From assembly GCF_002895945.1 (NCBI RefSeq), contig NZ_NPZB01000001.1:1-64000 (forward strand): DNA of 64,000 nt, given 5' to 3'. The notes under the pieces are model-generated. The model saw nothing but the letters and a program-made list of their open reading frames with translations, was not told the DNA's origin and did not search any database. How positions within the stretch are numbered: the stretch's first letter is position 1; the number at the start of each line of letters is the position of its first letter. The position numbers were made by a program, and so were the translations under genes. The DNA is from Solilutibacter silvestris. Its GTDB lineage: Bacteria > Pseudomonadota > Gammaproteobacteria > Xanthomonadales > Xanthomonadaceae. Shown one piece after another: positions 1 to 16,881 of this stretch.

Positions 1-64
1 CGCGATCGAGCACCTGCTTGACTGCTTCGGCCTTGAACTCATCCGTATATCGCTTGCTGCTCAT
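1..64 (-). CDS. IS3-family transposase OrfA, N-terminal part only (cut by window edge)
   Basis: The minus strand from 64 reads MSSKRYTDEFKAEAVKQVL, the start of the helix-turn-helix OrfA protein of IS3-family elements. A GAGGTG ribosome site lies just before the ATG. The gene continues beyond position 1, so completeness cannot be judged. OrfA binds the ends of the element and, fused to OrfB by frameshifting, forms the transposase. Confidence 0.85.
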   Translation of the reverse strand, partial: MSSKRYTDEFKAEAVKQVLDR

Positions 65-127
65 CAACACCTCTGCCGTTGCCATGAATTATGGCTCCTG
101 GGTGTCTACGAAAGGCTGGGCGGTCCA
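1..127 (-). mobile_element. End of an IS3-family insertion sequence
   Basis: The minus strand from 127 begins TGGACCGCCCAGCC, which has the look of an IS3-group terminal inverted repeat, about 35 bases ahead of the OrfA start at 64. The other end lies outside the window, so the repeat partner and any target duplication cannot be checked. The boundary at 127 is inferred from the TGGACC end. Confidence 0.6.
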
Positions 128-550: not shown

Positions 551-1486
551 TCAGATGCCGATAAAGCCGGGTTTGACCCGGACTTGTTCTTGGGAATATG
601 CCGCCAAGAAAGCCTCGGCGACATGATTGACTGCCTCTGCGCTCGGATGTCGCTCGTCACTTTGCCAAAGCGAAATTCCCATTGGATTGGTCTGGAAAAA
701 CTCATACGCAGGGAAATAGGAGATGTGCGTGTCTTCCTTCGTCTCGTCGAGAAGAATGAACATCGCAGCAAGTAACGTCGATTTTGATCGACTGTTTGCT
801 ACTTGCGGATGATAGCCATCGTCGGCGTGTTTGAGAGGCGTTGGCGAGACGCTAAACACGATAGGGGTGTTAGGTGGCTTATGCGCACGGATCAGTCCAA
901 CGACCTGCCGCATATCCTCAACACACTCGTCGACCGTCAGGAAACGATTCACAATATGCATGTCAGACGATTTGCCCAAGATCTCTGCACCCAGATAGGG
1001 CGCACGATTCAATGTGATTATTTCACCACTGATCTGCGCCTCCCAGATGTCGGAAAGGCCTAGCGTGATAAAGAACGCATCCGCCTTTTCAAAGGCTCGC
1101 ATAGAGTCCGTGGCTGTTCTCAACTTTGTTTCGACCAACTCTTCGGCGCTCTGGGCATCGACGCAATGGCGCAATGGATCGTCGTAGGCTTGGCTACCAT
1201 CAGCCTTGCGAACCCGCCAGTCGATACTGGGCGCTGGTAGTCCCACCGCACGACGCAGTTCATAGAGTATGGTGCGACTATTGTAATGGACGCCCCAGGA
1301 GACATCTGGAAGATCGAACCCCTGAAACTTTAGCCACAGATTAATATTCACAGCAAAACAACTGCCGATGGAATACGCGCAGGTCGCCCTTGTTAAGAAC
1401 TTGATCGGGTTGACAGGACGAACCAACGGACTATCCGCTCGGTGCCATTTGTGACCTGCCTGCGGCGTTACCAATTGCCAGTACAC
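551..1486 (-). CDS. GSCFA-domain protein (SGNH-like esterase/acyltransferase fold)
   Basis: The 311-residue product carries the motif that names the GSCFA family (AYSIGSCFAVN, GSCFA at residues 41-45) and, near the C-terminus, DERHPSAEAV, which resembles the Asp-x-x-His block of SGNH hydrolases. A middle FSVSPTPLK block is also typical. The family is uncharacterised; the fold suggests ester cleavage or acyl transfer. I see no signal peptide. The GTG start at 1486 is chosen because AGGAG lies 8 bases upstream. It is the last gene of the operon, 72 bases after the ATP-grasp gene. I infer that it moves or removes an acyl group on the operon's product. Confidence 0.75.
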   Translation of the reverse strand: MYWQLVTPQAGHKWHRADSPLVRPVNPIKFLTRATCAYSIGSCFAVNINLWLKFQGFDLPDVSWGVHYNSRTILYELRRAVGLPAPSIDWRVRKADGSQAYDDPLRHCVDAQSAEELVETKLRTATDSMRAFEKADAFFITLGLSDIWEAQISGEIITLNRAPYLGAEILGKSSDMHIVNRFLTVDECVEDMRQVVGLIRAHKPPNTPIVFSVSPTPLKHADDGYHPQVANSRSKSTLLAAMFILLDETKEDTHISYFPAYEFFQTNPMGISLWQSDERHPSAEAVNHVAEAFLAAYSQEQVRVKPGFIGI

Positions 1487-1558
1487 AGCACTTTCTCCTG
1501 TTCTTTGCCATCTTGGAGCGACAGGTTATGGGCGTGGTTTCACCCAGCATATTTGAAC

Positions 1559-2557
1559 CTACGAAGCCATGCCCTCACTCACGGGCGAACCGTCGGTCCT
1601 CGCACAGTTCATGATTGTTTCGCCATCAAACAACGAGCGGATACCGTGGCACAATTCCTTTCCAAGCGAGTGAAGCTCTTTGCAATGCAAGTGCTTGACG
1701 AACGAACCACCAGGCGTGCGATTGGCATCGAACAGTACGACTTCATCGTCCTTCAGCACATAGTCGAACTTGCCAAATTCGAAGCCAAGATTCTTCCGTA
1801 TGGTTCGTAATGCCGGCGGGACGGGCACCTCTTCCAACTTAACTGTATTCGATACTTTGATGATGGGCTGGGTCGACGTAAGCCGATAACTGATCTCCCG
1901 ATCGCCGCAAAACCAGTAGTACCGAACGGCATAGTTCGTCCCTACTCGTTCAGGCAAAAAGCGTTCCACAACCAAGTTCTTATTACTAAATATGCTTCTG
2001 GGGACATTGCCAAGCGATGAGAATACTCGGTATTCGCTGGTCTTAAGTTCCCGTATACATCTCCAAGGCACTTCCCCCGTAATCAGCTTGCTAAGCTTCC
2101 CAACGGCGTTGTTGACCCTCTCTCCGAGGATCGCATGTTGCCCAGATCGAAGACGCAATTCGGGCATACCGCCGAAGTTCCGGTCGGTCTTGACGATCAC
2201 CGGACCGCAATAGGGCGAGTCCCTACTCAAGAGATTCGTACTGATCTTGGATTTTGATATGTCAACTACCGATGCATTGATGGTCCGCGGAAATCTCTGC
2301 ATGAAGGCAAAGTATTCGCGCGGAACGACAGTCATGTCCAAGTGCGGGATCAACAGATCGGCAGATAGATACCTGTCGACACCTCGAAGGACTTGCACGT
2401 CATATCCCATACTTCGCCATTCGGCCATAAGCAGACCGAGCAGGTAGGTCTGCGGGTCGGGCGCGAGCTCATGAATCAGTATGGCGATTCTTTCCATATC
2501 CAGATACGTTCTCTTGCTGGGTGACTTGCGCCGGATGGCCCCGCGCATCCGGTTCAA
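1559..2557 (-). CDS. ATP-grasp family ligase, specificity unknown
   Basis: This 332-residue protein has the landmarks of an ATP-grasp enzyme: a lysine strand (GPVIVKTDRNFGG), an adenine-binding strand with acidic residue (LVVERFLPE) and a C-terminal metal-binding block (GKFDYVLKDDEVVLFDANRTPGG). ATP-grasp enzymes join a carboxylate to an amine or other nucleophile through an acyl phosphate. It most resembles RimK-like members but matches none I can name. The TTG at 2557 overlaps the stop of the glucosyltransferase gene; an ATG at 2497 (MERIAILIHELAP) is an equally possible start. The carboxylate could be hydroxymalonate, a peptide or a sugar acid; this is not shown. Confidence 0.75.
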   Translation of the reverse strand: MNRMRGAIRRKSPSKRTYLDMERIAILIHELAPDPQTYLLGLLMAEWRSMGYDVQVLRGVDRYLSADLLIPHLDMTVVPREYFAFMQRFPRTINASVVDISKSKISTNLLSRDSPYCGPVIVKTDRNFGGMPELRLRSGQHAILGERVNNAVGKLSKLITGEVPWRCIRELKTSEYRVFSSLGNVPRSIFSNKNLVVERFLPERVGTNYAVRYYWFCGDREISYRLTSTQPIIKVSNTVKLEEVPVPPALRTIRKNLGFEFGKFDYVLKDDEVVLFDANRTPGGSFVKHLHCKELHSLGKELCHGIRSLFDGETIMNCARTDGSPVSEGMAS

Positions 2558-4347
2558 TTAATAGCTTCGTGATTCGAATCCGACGCCACCTGTTCGATCG
2601 TGACCTCCTCGTATCGCTGGCTCATTTGCCAGGCGACGAACGGCGCAACCGCCCAAGCGCAGATGACTGCAACGATTAGTGGATTCCAACTTGCCGACCA
2701 GATGTGCACCCATACTGCAAGCAGTAGTGCAGCAGCTGGGGAGATCCACATGTATCGCACATAGCCCATTACGCCAAGATCATCGGCGTCGTATTCACTA
2801 GAGGGCACCCACTCCAGTCCACGACGCTTGGAACCGGCGATGCGATAGATCGCTCTGCAGGCGGCATCTACATTGCGCGCGCCCTCGAATGGGGCAAACG
2901 CGACTGTTATGAAGGCGTAGACAGCGCAATCCTTATAAGTGCGGAATGAGGTCTGTGCTCCTTGGACTTTCTTCACGATGACGACCACGACAATCGGAAT
3001 AAGCACCGACGCCAGCGATACAATAGCGCTGCGATACGTCCGGTCTGTCATTACGCAGAGGAACTGGAGCAGCGCGATGGATGCTGGGAATAGGCTGGCA
3101 AGTATGCATTTTAATATCTTCCAGCGGGACAACAAACTGAAAGTGTTTTTTCGCCGTCCGGTAGCAGACGGTACCGATGGAAAGAGCCAGGTCCCGTTCT
3201 GCCAGTCGCCCCGCATCCAGCGGTGGTGGCGCCTGGACGCTGCGTGGTAGGTGGGCGGAACAGTTTCGTACAAGATGACATTGCCCGCCCATCCGGCGCG
3301 AGCGAAGCATCCCTCGACGACGTCGTGGCTCAGCAGGTGGTTTTCCGGAATCATGCCCCGCAACGACATGTCGAAGGCAGCCACCTCGTAGATGCCTACG
3401 CCCGTGAAACATCCCTCTCCGAAGAAGTCCTGAAAGATGTCGAAATGAAGCTTCTTCGGATCGGTCCCGCGCTGTCTAACCCAGAAGCGCTCGAACCAGG
3501 ATGCGGCACCGGTCGGTATGCTCGCCATCATCCTGGGTTGCAGGATGCCATGACCGGATACAACGCTCGTACCATCCATCCTTGGTTCATTGGCGGGGTG
3601 CGCCAAGATAGAAATTAGCTGAAGGGCAGCTCCGGGGGGCAGACGGGTGTCATTATCCAAAGTAATGACGTACTTTGCTCTTCTTAATGCACAGATGTCG
3701 CCTTCAACAACAGGGAAGTGCGACGCGTTTCCGCGTAGGATGAAATCGTTAAGGTCCTCTAGCTTTCCACGCTTGCGTTCGTATCCCATCCATACAGAAT
3801 CATAGGCATTCCATCGCCTCCCACGATGAAGCAGGAAGAAGGGACGGCGATTCGCCGATCCATATGTTTCGTTCAGCTCACTGATCCGATGTTGGATCTG
3901 CGACAGTTGCTCGTCATCGGTGGGCAAATGTTCTGTAGGTGCGTCGCCCCAATCAGTCAGCACACCGAAGAAGACGTTTGGATCATCGTTGGCCAAGAAA
4001 TGGTCACGGATACGATCCGCGAGTGCATCGATCTTCTGACTGTCTAGAATAAGATCAGGAATTACTACCAAGGTCGTATTTTCAGCAGCAACATTGTCTG
4101 CATCGATAGCCGACAGGGGCAGCGAGCGAACGAAAAGTCGTATTACGCTATTCGTGACAGAAAATACGGGATGAGCGATAAGCGGCACAAGGCAAACCAC
4201 CATCAAAGCTACTACTAAAACGCCACTATCATAGGCACCGAAGTACAGGAGCAAGATGACGATTATGGCAGCCACCACCAAACCGACAAAACTTAGATAA
4301 AGACGGGTTAATCCCGTCGTCGTAAAGCGATCACTCAGTTTTTTCAT
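2554..4347 (-). CDS. Stand-alone GT84 beta-1,2-glucan synthase-like glucosyltransferase, membrane protein
   Basis: The 597-residue product has two membrane segments near residues 15-60, a cytoplasmic glycosyltransferase domain and further membrane segments from about residue 410. It matches the GT84 half of cyclic beta-1,2-glucan synthase (NdvB/ChvB): LLHRGRRWN and WMGYERKRGKLEDLN (170-200), DNDT (231-234), GCFTGVGIY (312-320), SHDVVEG (340-346) and RRHHRWMRGDWQ (372-383). NdvB uses UDP-glucose to build beta-1,2-glucan and carries a GH94 phosphorylase half that sets chain length. Here the protein stops where GH94 would begin, so it is about one fifth of NdvB length. The start is supported by AGAAGGA 8-9 bases upstream. 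It overlaps the small gene before it (ATGA) and the ATP-grasp gene after it. Confidence 0.85.
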   Translation of the reverse strand: MKKLSDRFTTTGLTRLYLSFVGLVVAAIIVILLLYFGAYDSGVLVVALMVVCLVPLIAHPVFSVTNSVIRLFVRSLPLSAIDADNVAAENTTLVVIPDLILDSQKIDALADRIRDHFLANDDPNVFFGVLTDWGDAPTEHLPTDDEQLSQIQHRISELNETYGSANRRPFFLLHRGRRWNAYDSVWMGYERKRGKLEDLNDFILRGNASHFPVVEGDICALRRAKYVITLDNDTRLPPGAALQLISILAHPANEPRMDGTSVVSGHGILQPRMMASIPTGAASWFERFWVRQRGTDPKKLHFDIFQDFFGEGCFTGVGIYEVAAFDMSLRGMIPENHLLSHDVVEGCFARAGWAGNVILYETVPPTYHAASRRHHRWMRGDWQNGTWLFPSVPSATGRRKNTFSLLSRWKILKCILASLFPASIALLQFLCVMTDRTYRSAIVSLASVLIPIVVVVIVKKVQGAQTSFRTYKDCAVYAFITVAFAPFEGARNVDAACRAIYRIAGSKRRGLEWVPSSEYDADDLGVMGYVRYMWISPAAALLLAVWVHIWSASWNPLIVAVICAWAVAPFVAWQMSQRYEEVTIEQVASDSNHEAIN

Positions 4348-4490
4348 TGTGACGTTCCTTCTACCGAATGGATCTCGACTCCACGCATGACGAATCGGAG
4401 CACCTCTGGGCCACGACCCGTGACTATACCCGCATCCGTAGTTGGTATACTTACCATGTGATGCATTGAAACGAAAGGTGGCCTACACAC
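4344..4490 (-). CDS. 48-residue small protein between FkbH and GT84 genes
   Basis: A GTG at 4490 preceded by a near-perfect AAGGAGGGG opens a 48-codon frame (starts M-C-R-P-P-F-V-S, ends H-S-V-E-G-T-S-Q). Its TGA overlaps the ATG of the glucosyltransferase gene as ATGA, the same coupling seen elsewhere in this operon. A strong ribosome site plus coupled stop argue for real translation. I recognise no family and see no membrane segment. It could be a small partner of the glucosyltransferase, a modified peptide for the ATP-grasp enzyme, or a translated leader that only couples expression. A 13-codon frame (ATG at 4491) shares the same ribosome site in another phase. Confidence 0.5.
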   Translation of the reverse strand: MCRPPFVSMHHMVSIPTTDAGIVTGRGPEVLRFVMRGVEIHSVEGTSQ

Positions 4491-4496
4491 ATCAAT

Positions 4497-4505
4497 CCCC
4501 TCCTT
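4497..4505 (-). promoter_or_regulatory. Strong ribosome binding site AAGGAGGGG
   Basis: The minus strand reads AAGGAGGGG here, six bases before the GTG at 4490. It is the best Shine-Dalgarno sequence in the accessory operon and is what decides that the small 4344-4490 frame is probably a gene. Confidence 0.6.
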
Positions 4506-4562
4506 GTCTTGTCGAACTGTCCGTCCTAAAGACCGACCGTATAGAACGAATGGATCAAGGCT

Positions 4563-5651
4563 TCAATCAAGCAGGGCGTTGTCCAGCTCGCTCACCAACT
4601 TTACATAGTCTGGAAACGGATGGATCCGCTTCAAGTCATGTTCCAGAAGAAGTCCAGCCGCGTCCTGAGATACTTCACGAAATCCTGCAAACTTGTATGT
4701 CACATACATCTGCCGGTTGCGGTCAGTATGAACAAAAGAGGCACGCAATCGCACGCCTGCATTGGCTGACTTGCGAAGCAGGTGACCGAGCAGCACCGTT
4801 CCCACACCCCGAGTCATCACCCGACAAGACATGATCAAGAGCCGTATTGTCCAGATTGTGGCACTGGTCTCGACCAGAGCCAACCCAATGATCCCGCTGC
4901 TGCCATAGCGATCCTCGAGTTTCGCAACTAACAACAGATGATCCGGAGAGCGAGCCAGGTCCTCGAGTTCCTCATAGGAATAGGTGAGACCAGTCGTGTT
5001 GAGCTGATTGGTCCTCAGTGTGAGCTCCTCCGCACGCTGCAGGTCGCCGTCGGCGGCTGGCAGGATTGACATTCGCATGCCCAGCGTCGACAAGAACGCG
5101 CCGCGGGATCCCGTGAAGCTCTTCTCTGCCTCGACCCGAGCTATATCTGTGCGATACATCAAGCGGCGCATGCGAGCCTCATCCGTGACGACATCGAGCC
5201 GGAATTCCGCACGATCGAGCAACCCCGGGATTTCCGTGGCATCAATAACGTTTACCTGAGGCAGGTAGAACGCAACCTCGTCCCGCTCGGCGGCCTGATC
5301 GTCTATAAAAGCTACTGTATCGAGTCCAATGCCAAGCCTCTCGGCAATTGTACGCACCGCGTCGGCCTTGCCCGCCCATGAGATTTGAGGATGGAGGAAG
5401 AATTCCGCCAAACCGAAAGCCTCGACCACAGGCCACGCGGCGGCGTAATCGTTCTTACTCGCCACGGACTGAAGGATGCCTCTTTCATCCAGTTGTCTGA
5501 CTACTTCGGCGACGCCTTTCTTGAGTTCACGCGCCTCTCCATTCAGGAGCTTGCCTTGCCAGAGGGTATCATCAAGGTCCCAGACTAGACACTTGATCGT
5601 CTTTTGGGCGTGCCGATCTTCTGCACCGCCGTTAAGATCAGAAATCGACAT
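4563..5651 (-). CDS. fkbH: FkbH-like protein: HAD phosphatase plus GNAT-like domain, loads glyceryl onto ACP
   Basis: The HAD nucleophile motif WDLDDTLW sits at residues 24-31 and the C-terminal half has the FkbH signature LIMSCRVMTRGVG. FkbH proteins take 1,3-bisphosphoglycerate, remove phosphate and place a glyceryl unit on a dedicated ACP, the first step to hydroxy- or methoxymalonyl-ACP. The open frame extends to 5774, but ATG at 5651 gives 362 residues, the usual family length, and leaves a 14-base overlap with the acyl-CoA dehydrogenase gene. Its ACP partner is two genes upstream. There is no upstream Shine-Dalgarno, so it is probably translated by coupling. Confidence 0.88.
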   Translation of the reverse strand: MSISDLNGGAEDRHAQKTIKCLVWDLDDTLWQGKLLNGEARELKKGVAEVVRQLDERGILQSVASKNDYAAAWPVVEAFGLAEFFLHPQISWAGKADAVRTIAERLGIGLDTVAFIDDQAAERDEVAFYLPQVNVIDATEIPGLLDRAEFRLDVVTDEARMRRLMYRTDIARVEAEKSFTGSRGAFLSTLGMRMSILPAADGDLQRAEELTLRTNQLNTTGLTYSYEELEDLARSPDHLLLVAKLEDRYGSSGIIGLALVETSATIWTIRLLIMSCRVMTRGVGTVLLGHLLRKSANAGVRLRASFVHTDRNRQMYVTYKFAGFREVSQDAAGLLLEHDLKRIHPFPDYVKLVSELDNALLD

Positions 5652-6783
5652 GGGGCGACTGGAGTGCATAGGATGCAAGTCCGACCTGATGTATTTCCCG
5701 CGTGCCCTCGATAATCTCGAGGACCGTAGCATCACGCAGGTATCGTTCGACAGAGTAGCCGATGCTGTAGCCATTAGCGCCGTGTAACCTCACCGCGTCG
5801 TTGGCCACCCGGACAGCGGCCTGCGCCGCATGGTATTTCGCCAGCGTCGTTTCCATGACGGCGCGTGGATCACCTTCCATCCGGAAAAATGCACTGCGAC
5901 AGCAGAGGGCACGTGCCGTGGTATGAGCCAGCAGCATGTCGGTTAGCTGTCGCCTGACAAGTTGAAACTCTGCGAGGGAGTGCCCCGCCTGTTTCCGATG
6001 CACGGCATAGGAAAGACAAGCGTCTAGGCATGCCCAAACGACACCGGCTGCGCCCCATGCGATTGAGAACCGTCCTTGGTCTAGCGCTGCGTTCGCGACG
6101 AAGGCTATGCCCGCCCCTACCGGACCTATTCGCTGGGACATGGGTATCTCAACGTCCTCGAAACACAGACGCGCAAGCATGGCGCCCCGTACCCCCAAGA
6201 CTTCCATCATCGGTTCCGTTGTGAATCCGGGATGGCCGCGTTCAACCACAAGCGCGATAGGCCTGCCGCCATCCTGAGCAAAGATGAGGAAGAGATCTGC
6301 TACGAGACCTGCAGTGATCCAGACCTTGGTGCCGTTAACCCGATAGTGCGATCTCTGGTCCTGGGCGTCGGTGGCAATGGAATTCCCCGCGCTACCCACC
6401 TCCTCCTCCGTCAGGGCGAAGGCGATGATCTTCCTGCCCGAGCAGATGTCGGGAAGCCATCGCGCTTTCTGTTCGGGGGTACCAAAACGGACCAATGCAT
6501 GCGCAGCCATGTTATGAGCCGTCATGAAGCTGCGCACGGACGAACACGCCTTACCAATCTCTTCGGTTACCACACCATAGGCCAGCGCATCCATATTGCC
6601 CGCCCCCCACTCTGCTGGTAGTGCAGCACTCAACCAGCCGTTGGAGCGCAAAGTGCCTAGTAGCTCAGCAGACATAACTCGCTGACGATCGATGTCGCCC
6701 GCGACAGGAACGATATGTTCTGCGGCGAAACGTTTCGCCCTTTCCTTAGCATCCTGCTGGGCGTCGGTAAGGCGCAGGTCCAC
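5638..6783 (-). CDS. fkbI: Acyl-CoA dehydrogenase of the FkbI type (acts on ACP-bound substrate)
   Basis: The 381-residue protein is a full-length flavin acyl-CoA dehydrogenase: N-terminal helices, AFALTEEEVGSAGNS and KVWITAG in the middle sheet domain, and the C-terminal block YLRDATVLEIIEGTREI. In methoxymalonyl and hydroxymalonyl pathways the matching enzyme oxidises the 2-hydroxy-3-oxopropionyl-ACP aldehyde to hydroxymalonyl-ACP. The GTG start at 6783 shares its G with the TAG stop of the ACP gene. Gene order, not sequence alone, separates it from beta-oxidation dehydrogenases. Confidence 0.85.
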   Translation of the reverse strand: MDLRLTDAQQDAKERAKRFAAEHIVPVAGDIDRQRVMSAELLGTLRSNGWLSAALPAEWGAGNMDALAYGVVTEEIGKACSSVRSFMTAHNMAAHALVRFGTPEQKARWLPDICSGRKIIAFALTEEEVGSAGNSIATDAQDQRSHYRVNGTKVWITAGLVADLFLIFAQDGGRPIALVVERGHPGFTTEPMMEVLGVRGAMLARLCFEDVEIPMSQRIGPVGAGIAFVANAALDQGRFSIAWGAAGVVWACLDACLSYAVHRKQAGHSLAEFQLVRRQLTDMLLAHTTARALCCRSAFFRMEGDPRAVMETTLAKYHAAQAAVRVANDAVRLHGANGYSIGYSVERYLRDATVLEIIEGTREIHQVGLASYALQSPHVDF

Positions 6784-7025
6784 TATGCCGCGACACTCCC
6801 AAGTTTTCGGGTGACGAACGAATCCATTGCATCGACCGACAAGAAGTTGTCAAGATCGAGATCCTCGTTATCCACCGTCACCTTGAACTCGTTCTGGATA
6901 AAGTCGACGAGTTGCAGGGCGAAAAGAGAATTCACCAGCCCTGTGCTGAAGATATCTTCGTCGTCGGCCATCGACTGACCGATGTTCCTTTTCAAATATT
7001 CCCTTATCCGCAGTCTATGGTCCAT
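6783..7025 (-). CDS. fkbJ: Discrete acyl carrier protein of the FkbJ type
   Basis: An 80-residue acidic protein with the four-helix carrier pattern. The phosphopantetheine serine is Ser33 in GLVNSLFALQLVDF; asparagine in place of the usual Asp of the DSL motif is the form I associate with carrier proteins of hydroxy/methoxymalonyl cassettes. It would hold the glyceryl group while the dehydrogenases oxidise it. It overlaps the upstream dehydrogenase gene by 11 bases and the downstream gene by one base. No phosphopantetheinyl transferase is present in the window. Confidence 0.88.
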   Translation of the reverse strand: MDHRLRIREYLKRNIGQSMADDEDIFSTGLVNSLFALQLVDFIQNEFKVTVDNEDLDLDNFLSVDAMDSFVTRKLGSVAA

Positions 7026-7896
7026 GGATAGCTTCGCCCTCTTGGCCGTAGTCGAAAAATCCCACTCCGGATTTCCGCCCGAGTCTGTTGTCGCTCACCA
7101 TGCGGCGAAGCAGTGGACGGGGCTCGAACTTCGCATCATTGAAACTGTCCCGCAGCACCTCGAGCGTGCGCATGATGGTGTCAAGCCCGATCAGATCGGC
7201 GGTTGCCAGAGGACCCATCTTGTGGGCGAAACAATTCACAAAGATTGCATCTACATTGGTGGCACTCGCCGTATCGTCCTCCAGCACGGCGATGGCCTCG
7301 TTGATCATGAGCATCATCACACGGTTAGACACGAATCCCGGCTTGTCACGAACCACTATGGCTCGGCTGCCTAGCTGCGCCAGCATATCGTTCGCGGCAT
7401 CCACCGCGAACTGTGAGGTGACATCACTGACGACCACCTCGACATGGCGCCTGAGCGGCACGGGATTCATGAAATGCATGCCGATAATGTGGGGATGCCT
7501 CGTTGCGACCTTCGCGACCCGTGCGATACAAATTGCAGATGTGTTTACGACGAAGACGCACTCTGGATAGCACACCTCATCCAATGAACGGTACACATCT
7601 TCCTTGACCCCCCAGTCCTCGGTAGTATTCTCGATGACGAAGCCAATCTCGGCCAATTCGCCATGGTCAGTCGTCCCACGGATCCGTGAGAGGATCTCGC
7701 CATGATCGGCCTTACGAAGCGCCGGGCAACTGAATGCGGCAAATCGCAACCCGTCGGCAATAGACTTTCGGGCGCTGTCGAGCGCTGCCCGGTTGGTATC
7801 AATGAGCACGACATCATGTCCCGTCTGCGCGAGGGCCTGTGCGACGCTCCTTCCGATGACTCCGGCGCCGACCACGCCGATCTTCTCAAACCTCAT
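7015..7896 (-). CDS. fkbK: 3-hydroxyacyl-CoA dehydrogenase of the FkbK type
   Basis: The 293-residue protein has the NAD-binding start GVVGAGVIGRSVAQALAQTGHDVVLID, the catalytic-domain block HFMNPVPLRRHVEVV, RDKPGFVSNRVMMLMINEA, and the C-terminal DNRLGRKSGVGFFDY. In hydroxymalonyl-ACP synthesis this enzyme oxidises the primary alcohol of glyceryl-ACP to the aldehyde. It is the first recognisable gene of the minus-strand operon. AAAGGA lies about 11 bases before its ATG, and a 57-codon frame ends just before it. Confidence 0.85.
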   Translation of the reverse strand: MRFEKIGVVGAGVIGRSVAQALAQTGHDVVLIDTNRAALDSARKSIADGLRFAAFSCPALRKADHGEILSRIRGTTDHGELAEIGFVIENTTEDWGVKEDVYRSLDEVCYPECVFVVNTSAICIARVAKVATRHPHIIGMHFMNPVPLRRHVEVVVSDVTSQFAVDAANDMLAQLGSRAIVVRDKPGFVSNRVMMLMINEAIAVLEDDTASATNVDAIFVNCFAHKMGPLATADLIGLDTIMRTLEVLRDSFNDAKFEPRPLLRRMVSDNRLGRKSGVGFFDYGQEGEAIHGP

Positions 7897-7898
7897 AG

Positions 7899-8072
7899 CT
7901 ATGCTTGTCCTTTGCGAAAATCGACGATGGCATAGTTGCTGGATTCATCCATAACACTCCTGCACGGCCCTTCAATCTGATCGTCCACCAACCGGCGACC
8001 GAAATTCCGATGGAGGCAGGCCAGAGAACACGAATTTCGTAGCGTCAATAGAGACGACCATGTTTCCGACAT
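7899..8072 (-). CDS. Possible 57-codon small ORF leading the operon
   Basis: This frame starts ATG at 8072 and ends TAG two bases before the dehydrogenase start. Its last 17 codons also have their own ATG (7952) behind AGGAG, so a 17-residue peptide coupled to the dehydrogenase is the better-supported reading. A 41-codon frame (8097-7972) overlaps in another phase. I recognise no family in any of them. This could be a leader peptide, a decayed gene or chance. Confidence 0.25.
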   Translation of the reverse strand: MSETWSSLLTLRNSCSLACLHRNFGRRLVDDQIEGPCRSVMDESSNYAIVDFRKGQA

Positions 8073-8398: not shown

Positions 8399-9622
8399 AT
8401 GCTTAGATCATTAAAAATAACTTTTCATAGGGCCTTGCCGCCGGCAGTGGCTTTAACATTGTCGGGCTTGATCCTAGGCGGATGCGGACGGAACGTCGGC
8501 AGCGCGCAGACTGCAATAGTGGCCGACAAAGCCGCTGTCGCCGACGGAAGTGACGATAAGGTTAAGGAGCCGGTTACCGTCGTAGCTGCGATTCAGGAAA
8601 AAGTGCCTATCTACTTAACTGCATTGGGAACGGTCACAGCCTACAGTACGGTCACTGTCAACCCACAGGTTGGTGGGGAGTTGCTCAGCGTAAATTTCCA
8701 CGAAGGGCAGCAGGTGCGCAAGGGAGACTTATTAGCGGAAATTGATTCGCGTACACTGCGGGCGCAATACGATCAGGTGCTGGCCATTCGGCAGCAGAAT
8801 CAGTCCCTGCTGTCTACAGCACAATCGAACTACAGAAGAGCTAATTCTCCTGAGTACCGCCAGTATGTGGCGAAAAGCGATCTGACGAACTTACACAATC
8901 AAGTGGCGCAATACACCGCCGCCGTTGCAGCAGCACAGGCGAACATAGATCAGGGCAAGGTGCAATTGGGCTATACCCGGATCACCGCACCGATCAACGG
9001 CATAACCGGGATTCGAGGCGTAGACGCAGGCAATGTAGTTAGCACATCCAGTCAGATTGTCACGATTACGCAAGTACAACCAATCTACGTGACATTTAGT
9101 TTGCCGGAACAATATCTTGATCGAGTACGGACAGCCAAAAAGAAATCACCATTGCCAACAGCTGCATTAGATCGCAATAACGCGCACGTGATCGATCCTA
9201 GCGGAGATCTGCAGGTCATTGATAACCAGATCAGCGCAGGTAATGGGACATTCCGCCTACGCGCGCAGTTCCTAAATGCTGATGAGGCGTTGTGGCCTGG
9301 GCAGTTCGTCAATGTTCGACTGAAAATCGGTGAATTACCTGATGCTGTGGTAGTACCTTCTACGGCTATTTTCAGAGGTAAAGCTGGGGACTCTGTGTAC
9401 GTCATGAAGGCGGACAACACGGTTACTCTGCGCGAAGTTACCCAAGGAGAAGAAGTGGATGATAGCCGCGTAGTGATCTCCAGTGGCCTGCGCGTGGGTG
9501 AGAAGGTGATAACTGAAGGTCAGTTTCGGCTCTCAGAAGGCACAAAGGTTAATCCTAAATTACTGTACCGTATGCCACCAGCATCCACGTCTGACACGCA
9601 ACTTAAACCGGGACAACAATAG
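8399..9622 (+). CDS. RND efflux periplasmic adaptor (membrane fusion lipoprotein, MdtA/AcrA type)
   Basis: The 407-residue product begins with a lipoprotein signal (LSGLILGGC, lipobox cysteine near residue 29), then the biotinyl/lipoyl-like half TVNPQVGGELLSVNFHEGQQVRKGD, an alpha-hairpin, the second lipoyl half YTRITAPINGITGIRGVDAGN, and the beta-barrel and membrane-proximal blocks (LWPGQFVNVRLKIG, VVVPSTAIFRG). Such adaptors join an inner-membrane RND pump to an outer-membrane channel. No pump gene follows: IS3 remnants begin 48 bases after the stop. It is therefore an orphan, perhaps cut from its operon by the insertion, or served by a pump elsewhere. No clear Shine-Dalgarno precedes the start. 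Confidence 0.88.
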   Translation: MLRSLKITFHRALPPAVALTLSGLILGGCGRNVGSAQTAIVADKAAVADGSDDKVKEPVTVVAAIQEKVPIYLTALGTVTAYSTVTVNPQVGGELLSVNFHEGQQVRKGDLLAEIDSRTLRAQYDQVLAIRQQNQSLLSTAQSNYRRANSPEYRQYVAKSDLTNLHNQVAQYTAAVAAAQANIDQGKVQLGYTRITAPINGITGIRGVDAGNVVSTSSQIVTITQVQPIYVTFSLPEQYLDRVRTAKKKSPLPTAALDRNNAHVIDPSGDLQVIDNQISAGNGTFRLRAQFLNADEALWPGQFVNVRLKIGELPDAVVVPSTAIFRGKAGDSVYVMKADNTVTLREVTQGEEVDDSRVVISSGLRVGEKVITEGQFRLSEGTKVNPKLLYRMPPASTSDTQLKPGQQ

Positions 9623-9669
9623 ACATAATGACCTACGCATTTAATTTGTATCCAGTTATGCGGTGAGGG

Positions 9670-10241
9670 CTACGGGATGGTATCGGGCTCCTGCCAAGTT
9701 GGGCGAACGCTGGCCCGGGTCTTGTAGCTATGCACGCTGTGCGGCCGCTGTTCGTTGTAGAACTGCCGCCAACGTTCGATCAGCGCCTTGGCTTCGGCGC
9801 GGCTGCGGAACCACTCGCGGTTTGAGCAGCTCATCACGCAGCTTGCCGTTGAAGCTTTCGACGAAGCGGTTCTGCCAGAGACTGCCCGGTGCGATGAACG
9901 CAGGGCCGATCGCGACATCGCGCAGCCAGCACATCACCTTGGCTGCGGTGAACGCGAAACCATTGTCCGTGCGCACGAACGCAGGCTTGCCAAGAGGCAC
10001 ATCAACCGCGACAGGCTGCCAGAACGCCGCCGCCGCGGCCAAGACGCGGAATGTTCAGGCCGAGTGCACGCGTAGCCGCATGGGAACCCCGCTCAACGCC
10101 AGCCACGCCGCCATGCGTCGATACCCGAAACGCGGCACTGGACCGGCCAGTTTTTCGTAGACATTGAAGGACTGCTTCGGGTCGGTTTCCGCCGGTCGGC
10201 ACCGATCCGCAATTGATCAAACTGGCCCGCGGTCTAGCCAT
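9670..10241 (-). pseudogene. Decayed IS3-family transposase OrfB
   Basis: The DDE core is readable in pieces in different frames: FGYRRMAAWL near the 5' end, then AFVRTDNGFAF and IAPGSLWQNRFVESFNGKLRDELL, then SRAEAKALIERWRQFYNEQRPHS and a stop at 9670. At least two frame changes and an internal loss separate them, so no active transposase can be made. It lies directly downstream of the efflux adaptor gene. Confidence 0.85.
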
Positions 10242-13084: not shown

Positions 13085-15025
13085 CTATTTCTTCGGAGCG
13101 CTCGTCACCTCCTCCAACATCTCTGCCAATAGTTCAGCTGACACGGTTTTATTGAAGATCACAGAATCCGCGCTCCCGTGTTGCCTTTTCCCCACCACCG
13201 AAAGATCTCCTACGCCTCGTGTCCGCATGTCAAGTTCCGCAAGTCGCAGTCCGTCATTGGTTGATGCAATTGCTTGAAGTCGAGTCATCGCCGTTTCACC
13301 AATAGGTCGTGGAAGATAAAGGAAGCACCACCCGTCTCCACCGTGACGACTTAACCGGCCACGAAGCTGATGCGTCTGTGCTACACCAAATCGCTCTGCA
13401 TGCAGCAATACAAGCACGCGCAAACCTCTTATGTTTACTCCGGTTTCAACAATGGTAGTGCTTATGATTATTTGGGCACGCCCCGCATCCACATCCGCCA
13501 AGGCACGTCGGTTTTCCTCTTGGTCTGCCCCGCTGTGCGCGACGCGCACTTTCCCCGGGAATAGTGCTTCCCACTTTTCAGCTACCTCTTGCACGGAGGG
13601 AAGCGGGTAAATGTCCTCTTGCTCCTCCTCTGACGGTTCCTTTCGTGGACAGACAATGAGAAGGCGACAATCCGGATCACGAAGAAGATCTTTCACTTCT
13701 TGAACCATGACCCTTGCCTCGTCCCTCTGCACGATTCGGGTTCTTATATTTCGTGGAGAATGATATTTCGTCAGACGAATCACATTGACAGATCCGTACA
13801 TCAACATGGCTTGGGTCCGTGGAATAGGCGTTGCGCTTACTTCGATAATGTGTGTGCGTTGATCGACCAACGCTCTGCGCTGCTCAACAGAGAATCGATG
13901 CTGTTCGTCCGTGACAAACAAATCGATGGGCCCGATCTCGCGGAACAACAGTGCCGTTGTTCCCACCAAGACACGTTCCCCGGAAATGTCACGGTCAAGA
14001 TTCTTATTGACCCAGACCGGACTCAAATCTGGCCAGAGATCGCGAATCTCTTTGAATGCTTGCTCGGCTAGACGCTCGTGCGGGAGTAACACCGCGCATC
14101 GCCCGCCCGCTCGCGCCACATAGGCCACAGCCGACTGATAGACAATGCTCTTGCCCACCCCGACATCCGCATTAATCAGGCTCACCGATGTTCTAGGGGT
14201 TTGCAGCATACTCACAAGGTGATGAATGCCGGCTTCTTGCTCGTCCGTCAGCACGAAAGGTATCGATTCCAATAGCGCTTCCCAGCCCTCACACAGCAAT
14301 GGGGGACGGGAAACCTCGGGTAGTGCGCAAGTCTCCTTGAGGTCTTGCACCGAGATAAGTGCCGCCACTCGCGCGAGGATTGCGTGTGCCTCCTCGGCCT
14401 CCTCCAGATCAGCTGGACTGTGCACCCGCTCGAGTACTTGTTCTAGCGTCCATTCAGTGCACCGCACGAGTTGACGCAAGCGCGCCCCTTGCACGATTGA
14501 TCCAACTCGTTCTCTCAGGAATGTCGCTGCTATCGGGATTGATTGCTCAAGCCGTTCTGCAATCAGTCTGCGCACAGCGTCTGATCCCAGCACACCGGTA
14601 CGACCCGGATACGTCGGTAGTAGCCGACCCACTTCGCTAGCTTCGAGCAAGGTTGGCCCATTCAGGAATGGCTTCCCTCCAACGATTACGACAGTTCCCG
14701 CCAGACACAGCTCGTCGTGCGTCCGGGCCTTCGCCTCGAATCCTCGGGGATCACCGAAGAAACTGAATTTGAATCGTTGCCCACGCTCATCGAGGAGCGA
14801 AGCACGAGACAACGGTGATCTTTTCGCGCCGCGACGTGAACTCTTCCATTCGGTAAACAGGTCGTTGCCAAATCGTCCAACCACGACAATCCGTTGGCCC
14901 TCAACAAACCGTTCAGAAAAGTCCCTAACGACTGTTCGGCAGTCCAAATAACCCGTAGGAAGGTACAGAGGGACTTGCCAAGGCTCGCTCAACCCTAACG
15001 ACTTGAGTTTGCCTAAACTCAGCAT
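13085..15025 (-). CDS. Divergent RecG-like superfamily 2 helicase carried by the island
   Basis: The 646-residue protein keeps the RecG layout: an N-terminal OB/wedge-like region, then helicase motifs with RecG wording. Walker A is ADVGVGKS (286-293), motif II VTDEQHRFSVEQR (DEQH 373-376), motif III SATPIPRT (397-404), motif V TTIVETGV (523-530) and motif VI QLRGRLSR (553-560). RecG remodels stalled forks and R-loops. It differs widely from the host RecG next door, so it is no simple duplication. ATG at 15025 has AAGGG upstream and overlaps the new stop of the broken host recG (ATGCTGA), implying translational coupling to recG. An upstream TTG (15079) would add 18 residues. Confidence 0.88.
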   Translation of the reverse strand: MLSLGKLKSLGLSEPWQVPLYLPTGYLDCRTVVRDFSERFVEGQRIVVVGRFGNDLFTEWKSSRRGAKRSPLSRASLLDERGQRFKFSFFGDPRGFEAKARTHDELCLAGTVVIVGGKPFLNGPTLLEASEVGRLLPTYPGRTGVLGSDAVRRLIAERLEQSIPIAATFLRERVGSIVQGARLRQLVRCTEWTLEQVLERVHSPADLEEAEEAHAILARVAALISVQDLKETCALPEVSRPPLLCEGWEALLESIPFVLTDEQEAGIHHLVSMLQTPRTSVSLINADVGVGKSIVYQSAVAYVARAGGRCAVLLPHERLAEQAFKEIRDLWPDLSPVWVNKNLDRDISGERVLVGTTALLFREIGPIDLFVTDEQHRFSVEQRRALVDQRTHIIEVSATPIPRTQAMLMYGSVNVIRLTKYHSPRNIRTRIVQRDEARVMVQEVKDLLRDPDCRLLIVCPRKEPSEEEQEDIYPLPSVQEVAEKWEALFPGKVRVAHSGADQEENRRALADVDAGRAQIIISTTIVETGVNIRGLRVLVLLHAERFGVAQTHQLRGRLSRHGGDGWCFLYLPRPIGETAMTRLQAIASTNDGLRLAELDMRTRGVGDLSVVGKRQHGSADSVIFNKTVSAELLAEMLEEVTSAPKK

Positions 15026-15159
15026 GGGATGGCCCTTGACGTGGTCAGGGCCTTGTGTCGACCGCGACGCGCATGACAAACTAACTCATTAACCTCAAAA
15101 TCCGAAGGGAATCTCCGATTTTGACAAGATTTGCGGCGAGGGCAAGTTTCTAGGGAAAC
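15019..15159. other. Island end fused in frame to recG
   Basis: At 15160 the host recG reading (DLLVATTVI) stops matching RecG and becomes foreign for 46 codons up to the stop at 15019. A short near-palindrome, GTTTCTAGGGAAAC (15146-15159), sits exactly at the junction. No copy of the recG 3' end is found in the window, so the element extends left beyond position 1 or the 3' end was deleted. Confidence 0.6.
15095..15124. repeat. Inverted repeat TCAAAATC-N14-GATTTTGA near the island end
   Basis: A perfect 8-base inverted repeat about 35 bases inside the island/recG junction, in an AT-rich patch. It may be part of an end-recognition or attachment site, or just a stem-loop. There is no T-run, so it is unlikely to be a terminator. 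Confidence 0.4.
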
Positions 15160-16881
15160 GATCACGGTGGTGGCGACCAGCAGGTCGGTCTTGCCGGCCT
15201 TGAAATCGAGCATCGCGGCCTGTTTGTCGCGCGCGTTCATGCGCCCGTGTACCAGCCCGACCCGCAATTTCGGAAGTTGCGCGACCAACGCCTCGTAGGT
15301 GCCCTGCGCGGCCTGCGCGATCACTTCGTCGGAGTCGTCGATCAAGGTGCAGACCCAATAGGCCTGGCGACCTTCGGCACAGGCGGCGCGGATGCGTTCG
15401 ACCAGATCGGGACGGCGTTCCGAGGTCAGCACGATGGTCTGCACCGGCGTGCGCCCGGGCGGCAGTTCGTCGATCACCGAGACATCGAGGTCGGCGTAGG
15501 CCGCCATCGCCAAGGTGCGCGGAATCGGCGTCGCGGTCATCACCAACTGGTGCGGTACACGCTTATGAGAAGCCGGCGACGACGCATCATCCACGCCTGC
15601 CCGTCCTTTGTCGCGTAATGCCAGGCGTTGCTGCACGCCGAAGCGATGCTGTTCGTCGACGATGGCCAGCGCGAGATCGTGGAAGGCGATGCCTTCCTGC
15701 ATCAAGGCGTGCGTGCCGACCACCAGCTGCGCCGCGCCGTTGGCGATGGTGTCCAGCGTCGCTGCGCGCGCCTTGCCGCCGACTTTTCCCGCCAGCCAAG
15801 CAACGCGGATGTCGAGTGGTTCCAGCCAGCCACGCAAGGTGTCGTAGTGCTGTTCGGCGAGCAATTCTGTCGGCGCCATCAGCGCGGCCTGGCGCCCCGC
15901 TTCGATCGCCAGCAATGCCGCCAACGCCGCCACCACGGTCTTGCCGCTGCCGACATCGCCCTGTACCAGTCGCAGCATCGGATGCGGATGGGCGAGATCG
16001 TCGCGCACTTCGTCGAAGACGCGTTCCTGCGCCGCGGTCAGCGCGAACGGCAACGCTGCGCGCAGGCGTTCGGCCAATCGCGACGATTTCCCCAGTGGAA
16101 TCGCGCCATGTTTTTGCATGGCGATGCGTTGGCGGCGCAGGCTGAGGTGGTGCGCCAGCATTTCCTCCAGCGCCAGCCGTCGTTGCGCGGGATGATGGCC
16201 GGATTGCAGGGCATCGAGATCGGCATCGGCGGGCGGACGATGCAAGGTCAACAAGGCATCGCGCAATCCCGGCAGATGCAGCGCCCGCGCCAATTCCGCC
16301 GGCAGCAGTTCGAGTTCGGCATCATCAGGCAGGCGCTTCAACGCTTCGCCGATCAATCGTCGCAACGCCGCCGGCGTGACGCCTTCGAGTTGCGGATAGA
16401 CCGGGTCGAGGCGATCACTCAATGTCGCGTCTTCATCGCCAAGGATGCGGTAACTGGGATGCACCATCTCCAGTCCGAGCTGGCCCGGGCGTGGTGTGCC
16501 GAAGACGCGCACACGCGTGCCCGGCAGGAACTGGTTGGCCTGTTGCGAACGAAAGTGGAAGAAGCGCATCACCAGCGTGCCGCGCGAGTCGTCGGTCAGC
16601 GCGACCTTCAGTTGCGGGCGATAACGGAACCCGCGTTCGACGGCTTGCACGGTTCCTTCCACTTGCGCGGCGACGCCCGGTTGCAGCGCGCGGATCGGCG
16701 TTAGTCGCGTGCGGTCCTCATAGCCACGCGGCAGCCAGAACCACAGGTCCTGCAGCGTTTCCAGCCCGCGTTCGGCCAGTTTCGCCGACATCTGCGGGCC
16801 GACGCCAGGCAACGTGGCGATGGCGGCATTGCCGGCCGCCGCCAATGCCGGCGCGGGTTTGCCTGCTCGCGCCATTGGTCC

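Follow-up and report, generated by a model that had tools for sequence, protein, structure and literature searches.

The 64,000-nucleotide window analysed here, the left end of contig C1 (NZ_NPZB01000001.1) of Solilutibacter silvestris, contains an operon of eight genes that joins a predicted hydroxymalonyl-acyl carrier protein (ACP) cassette to the catalytic core of a beta-1,2-glucan synthase, a putative ATP-grasp protein and a GSCFA protein. Our tentative reading, held with a little less than even confidence, is that the operon forms the biosynthetic part of a pathway, carried on a genomic island, that yields a decorated glucan or beta-1,2-gluco-oligosaccharide; its product, substrate, acyl transfer and export we infer from the genes. 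All the enzyme families involved are known ones, but their combination was seen in this genome only, among the 398 sampled. The operon runs on the minus strand from position 7896, the 5' end of the FkbK gene, to position 551:

7015-7896, minus strand: FkbK-like 3-hydroxyacyl dehydrogenase, the first gene (Pfam 3HCDH_N, E = 6.7e-45; 3HCDH, 1.7e-26)
6783-7025, minus strand: FkbJ-like ACP (PP-binding, 4.4e-4; 20.9 bits against a cut-off of 20.8), overlapping the FkbK gene by 11 bp
5638-6783, minus strand: FkbI-like acyl-CoA/ACP dehydrogenase (Acyl-CoA_dh_1, 6.1e-34), overlapping the ACP gene by 1 bp
4563-5651, minus strand: FkbH, a HAD-IIIC protein of the glyceryl-ACP synthase type (TIGR01686, 247 bits against a cut-off of 146.65), overlapping the FkbI gene by 14 bp
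4344-4490, minus strand: open reading frame (ORF) of 48 residues with no assigned function, preceded by an AAGGAGG ribosome site and sharing a 4-bp ATGA overlap with the GT84 start
2554-4347, minus strand: GT84-like protein of 597 residues (residues 24-580 against Cgs 417-982, 3.8e-79)
1559-2497, or from a possible TTG start at 2557, minus strand: ATP-grasp-like protein, here called P0006 (motif blocks and a weak profile match)
551-1486, minus strand: GSCFA protein of the SGNH superfamily (PF08885, 3.8e-37)

Coordinates and profile matches confirmed the layout given in the first-pass annotation, namely seven recognisable genes and a small one on a single strand with overlapping or short junctions. 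Consecutive genes overlap or are separated by gaps of at most 72 bp, and GC content is low throughout (0.49-0.59 per gene). On the basis of profile and structure matches, the eight genes are genuine rather than chance ORFs; the 48-residue ORF returned no match in the Pfam search. Two boundaries had to be moved. The operon had been drawn up to 8072, where none of its genes starts, the FkbK start lying at 7896, and the FkbH start codon listed, an ATG at 5774, probably lies upstream of the true one; we reset it to 5651 because roughly the first 38-56 residues read from 5774 are absent in five homologues. Promoter-like sites, which occurred at chance level (4 versus a mean of 5.8 in shuffles), were not used; terminator-like sites exceeded chance (14 versus a mean of 6.8), but many were intragenic, so they were set aside as well.

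The assignment of the first four genes to the FkbK, FkbJ, FkbI and FkbH types held up in Pfam and NCBIfam searches, with key motifs intact. Judged by family, they constitute a complete hydroxymalonyl-ACP cassette in the order FkbK-ACP-FkbI-FkbH. FkbH retains its DxDxT motif and aligned at 50-56% identity with the FkbH proteins of five other cassettes, while the ACP showed 35-48% identity to five FkbJ-type ACPs, with Ser33 in the motif GLVNSL, the putative phosphopantetheine site, being invariant. These comparison cassettes comprise four annotated clusters (two cyanobacterial, one bacillar and one streptomycete) and one unannotated Nostoc stretch; gene order is identical in the plasmids of Gloeocapsopsis, Chroococcidiopsis, Alkalihalophilus and Streptomyces canus, and the Nostoc ORFs follow a matching pattern. 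Polyketide synthase (PKS), nonribosomal peptide synthetase (NRPS) or acyltransferase genes lie beside the cassette in three of the four annotated clusters, and the fourth has a very long gene, annotated as a short-chain dehydrogenase/reductase, about 4 kb away. We found no PKS or NRPS consumer in the operon itself, nor, among the listed whole-genome matches, in the island that carries it; the one strong type I PKS of the genome lies far away, at 918 kb on a second contig, C2. The operon genes also include no FkbG-type O-methyltransferase, and the end product expected from the pathway is therefore hydroxymalonyl-ACP.

The GT84-like protein was correctly recognised as one half of a beta-1,2-glucan synthase, as it aligns over nearly its full length with the GT84 core of Agrobacterium Cgs, a synthase of solved structure. 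The part of the Cgs study drawn on here places the cyclase at residues 979-1535 and the phosphorylase from 1536 onward (PMC10901819); since homology is confined to residues 417-982, the window protein consists of the transmembrane region and the GT84 core alone. It ends 17 residues after the homology stops, and the next gene is unrelated. Equivalents of the catalytic residues D527, D624, D739 and R773 are kept, as is the RW motif. The position of Tyr694, the glucan primer of Cgs, is lost: the loop reads DP-KKLHFD, without a tyrosine, and chain growth is therefore probably not started as in Cgs. DPY was present in all ten full-length synthases aligned, including the one that this genome itself encodes at C1:757 kb; the ten belong to the 52 strong GT84 matches outside the window, and one (L049) carries a stop codon in frame.

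Those matches come from a phylum sample of 398 genomes, the present one included, in which FkbH, GT84 and GSCFA were all searched, with at most four, three and five candidates scored per genome, respectively. Strong GT84 matches, with E no higher than 4.1e-68, numbered 53; the 52 outside the window occupy open frames of 2,109-3,023 codons, and the one in the window is the only short one (642 codons), although a short copy next to a long one could escape when three candidates at most are scored. Eleven further matches were weak (E about 1e-4 to 1e-3), and no GT84 match was obtained in any of 16 congeners.

The last two genes had been described as encoding an ATP-grasp ligase and a GSCFA protein. 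The second label stands (128.7 bits against a gathering score of 25); the first is drawn from motifs plus a weak match of the C-terminal part to a profile. The nucleophile block of the GSCFA protein is intact and occurs in all 19 homologues aligned, and inspection by eye revealed no evident signal peptide, so that the protein is probably cytoplasmic. P0006 shares the conserved blocks VIVK, VVERF, GKFDYV and DANRTP with its family but gave no significant match in Pfam, NCBIfam or the PDB. Its best chance-level hits were a radical-SAM chain (E = 0.2) and, for one of seven family members, a D-Ala-D-Lac ligase (E = 0.18), which we take to be an ATP-grasp enzyme itself. In profile comparisons with hhalign, 50 C-terminal columns aligned with an ATP-grasp of the RimK-like type at E = 0.0068 but with a probability of just 5.6; a second protein, which looked by eye like an ATP-grasp, gave nothing (E = 0.51), and neither did an acyl-CoA dehydrogenase control (E = 0.56). 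Together, the motifs and the weak 50-column match suggest that P0006 is a putative ATP-grasp protein. Structure predictions for the GSCFA and ATP-grasp-like proteins (pLDDT 33 and 35) were unusable and were not considered.

Searches for P0006 returned one of 60 relatives (its own genome), two of 369 class genomes (its own and G092), five of 239 phylum genomes with profile A1 (its own and four of one genus) and, in a scan of genome contigs, one metagenome-assembled genome. In G092, a RimK-like ATP-grasp has a P0006 relative on either side, and a third relative is found close to what appear by eye to be glycan genes; in the metagenome-assembled genome (contig L003), the relative runs into a stretch that looks sulfotransferase-like, followed by a methyltransferase (Methyltransf_11), and in G532 and G465 it stands beside a methyltransferase (Methyltransf_11 at L103, by eye at L102). 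Inspection by eye of the stretches read showed no FkbH gene. These neighbourhoods speak neither for nor against a glucan product.

Further evidence came from the surroundings of the operon. The window starts at a contig end, where a 127-bp insertion sequence (IS) end is common to both ends of C1; the two ends of C2 have another IS end in common, and the flanking trinucleotides pair C1-left with C2-left (AAG/AAG) and C1-right with C2-right (TAC/TAC). Independently, recG is broken near position 15,160, after ...LLVATTVI, and resumes with EVGVDVPNAS... near C2:37,870. The IS target duplications and the recG split thus place the operon in a single island, about 54 kb in size, that interrupts recG and continues on C2. 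GC contents of 0.536 and 0.552 were obtained for it, as compared to 0.642 in the remainder of the window, and a phage-integrase-family protein (Phage_integrase, 7.5e-12) lies beside the 3' part of recG, together with two further large proteins without a Pfam family. Foreign composition, a disrupted target gene and a recombinase at the edge mark this region as a genomic island.

On its C2 side, the island encodes an NdvA/ChvA-like ABC exporter (C2:8769-10721), whose best match in the PDB is NdvA (7znu; 2.5e-148, 498.5 bits). Against a self-score of 1431.7 bits, its best homologue reached 220.2 bits elsewhere in the genome and 269.8 bits in the 16 congeners. The presence of this exporter favours a glucan product. 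The island also supplies a phosphopantetheinyl transferase, above the Pfam cut-off and at 94.3 bits against a cut-off of 169 for the EntD model.

From these parts, the following route can be proposed. FkbH would load a glyceryl unit onto the ACP, and FkbK and FkbI would oxidise it to hydroxymalonyl-ACP, as their families suggest. The stand-alone GT84 membrane enzyme would put beta-1,2-linked glucose on an acceptor that is not its own loop, since it lacks the primer tyrosine and the chamber-forming domains of Cgs. The GSCFA protein would then pass the C3 acid from the ACP to the sugar in the cytoplasm, and the ATP-grasp-like protein might make a further acid-to-amine or acid-to-ACP bond. The part of the Cgs study cited reports the soluble domains of that enzyme, GT84 included, to be cytoplasmic (PMC10901819), which fits a cytoplasmic ACP donor. 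Export would fall to the NdvA-like transporter, and the island's sulfotransferase, GT90 protein and UDP-xylose-synthase-like enzyme may add further groups. The most specific form of this proposal is a new glycan decoration, in which hydroxymalonyl-ACP made without a dedicated PKS is moved by the GSCFA protein, in the cytoplasm, onto a linear beta-1,2-glucan, itself made by a GT84 enzyme without self-priming, cyclisation or length control and exported by an NdvA relative; we regard it as rather doubtful. The membrane-made glucan that the first-pass annotation had envisaged is partly supported: the GT84 core, the NdvA-like exporter and the island phosphopantetheinyl transferase speak for it, but no conserved gene block was found in the genomes sampled, and initiation of the Cgs type is probably lost.

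Several observations weigh against a decorated glucan. We know of no acyl transfer from hydroxymalonyl-ACP to a sugar; the ATP-grasp identity is putative, being drawn from motifs and a weak profile match; and FkbH cassettes elsewhere stand beside PKS or NRPS genes. The exporter scores just under both curated cut-offs (PRK13657, 715.7 against 733 bits; TIGR01192, 557.4 against 585.4 bits), plant ABCB transporters come second among its PDB matches (445 bits over two halves), and some 10 kb, including a defence-like cluster, separate its gene from the operon, which is on the opposite strand. Its partner could instead be the genome's own full-length synthase. A second phosphopantetheinyl transferase-like gene, with weak NCBIfam matches, lies by the NRPS-PKS locus on C2, so the island enzyme is not necessarily the only partner of the ACP. 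P0006 was absent from all 72,556 plasmid records searched, and the distribution of the operon genes points the same way: FkbH, GSCFA and GT84 matches occurred in 59, 32 and 61 genomes of the phylum sample, respectively, but FkbH lay near GT84 or GSCFA on one contig in none of the 397 others. Finally, PKS or NRPS domains were present in the stretches read at three of the seven closest FkbH loci, the contigs for four of the seven being only 10-19 kb long, and several island enzymes, discussed next, point to a small-molecule cluster.

In this alternative, hydroxymalonyl-ACP, the ATP-grasp-like protein, a PvcA-like protein, an aminotransferase and an FMN hydroxyacid oxidase would build a small molecule, to which GT84 would add one or a few beta-glucosyl units before export by ABC and RND pumps. 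We consider such a secondary-metabolite cluster possible but on balance improbable; it stays a serious rival on account of the further enzymes that the island encodes. A single island holds, besides the phosphopantetheinyl transferase, a DIT1_PvcA protein (7.7e-16; C2:29494-31164, L038:9494-11164), presumably of the isocyanide synthase family, near a DegT aminotransferase (6.3e-80) and an FMN-dependent dehydrogenase (FMN_dh, 4.4e-115), along with a GT90 protein (1.4e-21), a sulfotransferase and MdtA/MdtB-like RND components. In Alkalihalophilus, a gene annotated with a BtrH-N domain is close to the FkbK cassette, and BtrJ is, as we take it, an ATP-grasp ligase that charges an ACP. Moreover, the loss of the primer tyrosine would suit a small acceptor. 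Yet among the whole-genome matches listed, no PKS or NRPS hit fell within the island, and the exporter's best PDB match, NdvA, moves beta-1,2-glucan.

A chance junction, in which a hydroxymalonyl cassette was cut from a PKS cluster and set upstream of glycan genes to which it is unrelated, within an IS-rich island and with no joint function, appears unlikely. It would account for the IS ends and remnants that flank the operon, and for the finding that the relatives found for each half occur in other contexts. Five genomes besides the present one have both FkbH and GSCFA, on different contigs in four cases and 1.1 Mb apart in the fifth, and G220 carries FkbH and a strong GT84 on different contigs. 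Seven other FkbH matches, at 48-55% identity, have FkbI beside them in every case and FkbK plus ACP in five, but none of 13 FkbH neighbourhoods (these seven and six more distant ones) contained GT84, ATP-grasp or GSCFA. The conserved block in several genera that had been expected of a true system was thus not observed, either here or in the P0006 searches of 60 relatives, 369 class and 239 phylum genomes, leaving no second genome with the block among those sampled. The pattern that the first-pass annotation would have taken as the sign of an accident, FkbH cassettes beside PKS genes and GT84 elsewhere, is therefore present in part, in the three FkbH loci near PKS or NRPS domains and the 52 other GT84 proteins in long frames. 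Against an accident, the junctions are tight and translationally coupled, motifs are intact in both halves, GC content is low across all eight genes, and GT84 shares its island with an NdvA-like exporter and a phosphopantetheinyl transferase.

The cassette's product might also be supplied to the one type I PKS module that was found in this genome, a KS-AT (ketosynthase-acyltransferase) module (515 bits) at C2:916-928 kb, in an NRPS-PKS locus of the exopolysaccharide type. This is highly improbable and was rejected as the main explanation, since the NRPS-PKS protein is 82-83% identical in four of 16 congeners and in pieces in a fifth, with no FkbH match in any of the five, the locus differs in GC content from the distant operon, and its AT carries HAFH, which we take to be a malonyl-CoA signature.

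Other features of the window and of the C2 part of the island are:

1-127, minus strand: end of an IS element, presumably IS3-like, at which the contig stops (127-bp IS end)
8399-9622, plus strand: MdtA/MuxA-like RND adaptor (PRK11556, 294.9 bits, cut-off 391)
9643-10138, minus strand: remnant of an IS transposase gene (79-85% identity to a C2 stretch with a transposase ORF; rve_3, 3.2e-8)
15019-16875, minus strand: 5' part of recG, homology ending near 15,160 (RecG_wedge, 7.9e-16; 3' part near C2:37,870)
C2:18059 onward: MdtB-like permease (PRK10503, 965.5 bits on a stretch cut by the locus end, cut-off 1584)

The stretch of approximately 27 kb containing the operon has the adaptor at one end and the permease, one of the island's RND permeases, at the other, as if an inversion had moved them apart. 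Within 13085-15160, directly at the recG break, the island encodes a helicase that we read as RecG-like (664 residues, DEAD and Helicase_C), which perhaps replaces the lost recG function. At the ends of C1 and C2 (L033, L036), a gene of Rhs-type repeats, as judged by eye, is cut by the same IS, with similar repeats nearby. Between positions 1418 and 8151 of C2 (L034), NADAR, HAD, PRTase-CE, ORC-CDC6-like and CARF-like genes stand in a row and PADLOC reports PDC-M42C, PRTase_III-A and CARF6, making this a candidate defence cluster inside the island. The island's sugar-nucleotide enzyme, which we take for a UDP-xylose synthase, stayed below the cut-off in all NCBIfam matches.

If the operon does make a decorated glucan, acyl-carrier chemistry that is, to our knowledge, confined to polyketide-type assembly would serve to modify a sugar chain destined for export, GSCFA proteins, an orphan family, would obtain their first function, and a GT84 enzyme would be shown acting on an external acceptor. 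A protein of 597 residues would, in addition, make it possible to study beta-1,2-glucan polymerisation apart from the 2,800-residue synthase. Even with a small-molecule product, a hydroxymalonyl cassette without an adjoining PKS is an unusual lead. No paper in the PMC literature searched mentions hydroxymalonyl with glucan or FkbH with ATP-grasp, subscription literature being outside that search, and a wider literature search gave nothing on point among the matches listed.

Compared with known systems, the first half of the operon has the four enzymes, their order and the intact motifs of the polyketide cassettes FkbHIJK, OzmBDEG and ZmaDEGH for hydroxymalonyl- and methoxymalonyl-ACP, but it lacks a PKS and an FkbG-type O-methyltransferase, and GT84, ATP-grasp-like and GSCFA genes follow instead. 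With Cgs (GT84-GH189-GH94; about 2,800 residues), the window protein has in common the transmembrane region and the GT84 core with its catalytic residues, and it is without the N-terminal domain, the cyclase, the phosphorylase and the Tyr694 primer. NdvA/ChvA is the exporter's nearest match in the PDB and, through PRK13657 and TIGR01192, just under both cut-offs, in NCBIfam; here, however, the gene is not beside a full Cgs gene and is sited outside the window, on C2. The GSCFA protein has the nucleophile block intact, as in its family (PF08885), for which the part of a 2022 review drawn on here lists no member with a known activity (PMC9487903). Closest to the proposed product are rhizobial cyclic glucans with succinyl and glycerophosphoryl substituents, described in the part of PMC7569799 drawn on here, which place acidic groups on a beta-1,2-glucan as proposed for this operon. 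In the decorated glucan considered here, those groups would come from an ACP-bound hydroxymalonyl donor, for which we know of no counterpart in the rhizobial glucans.

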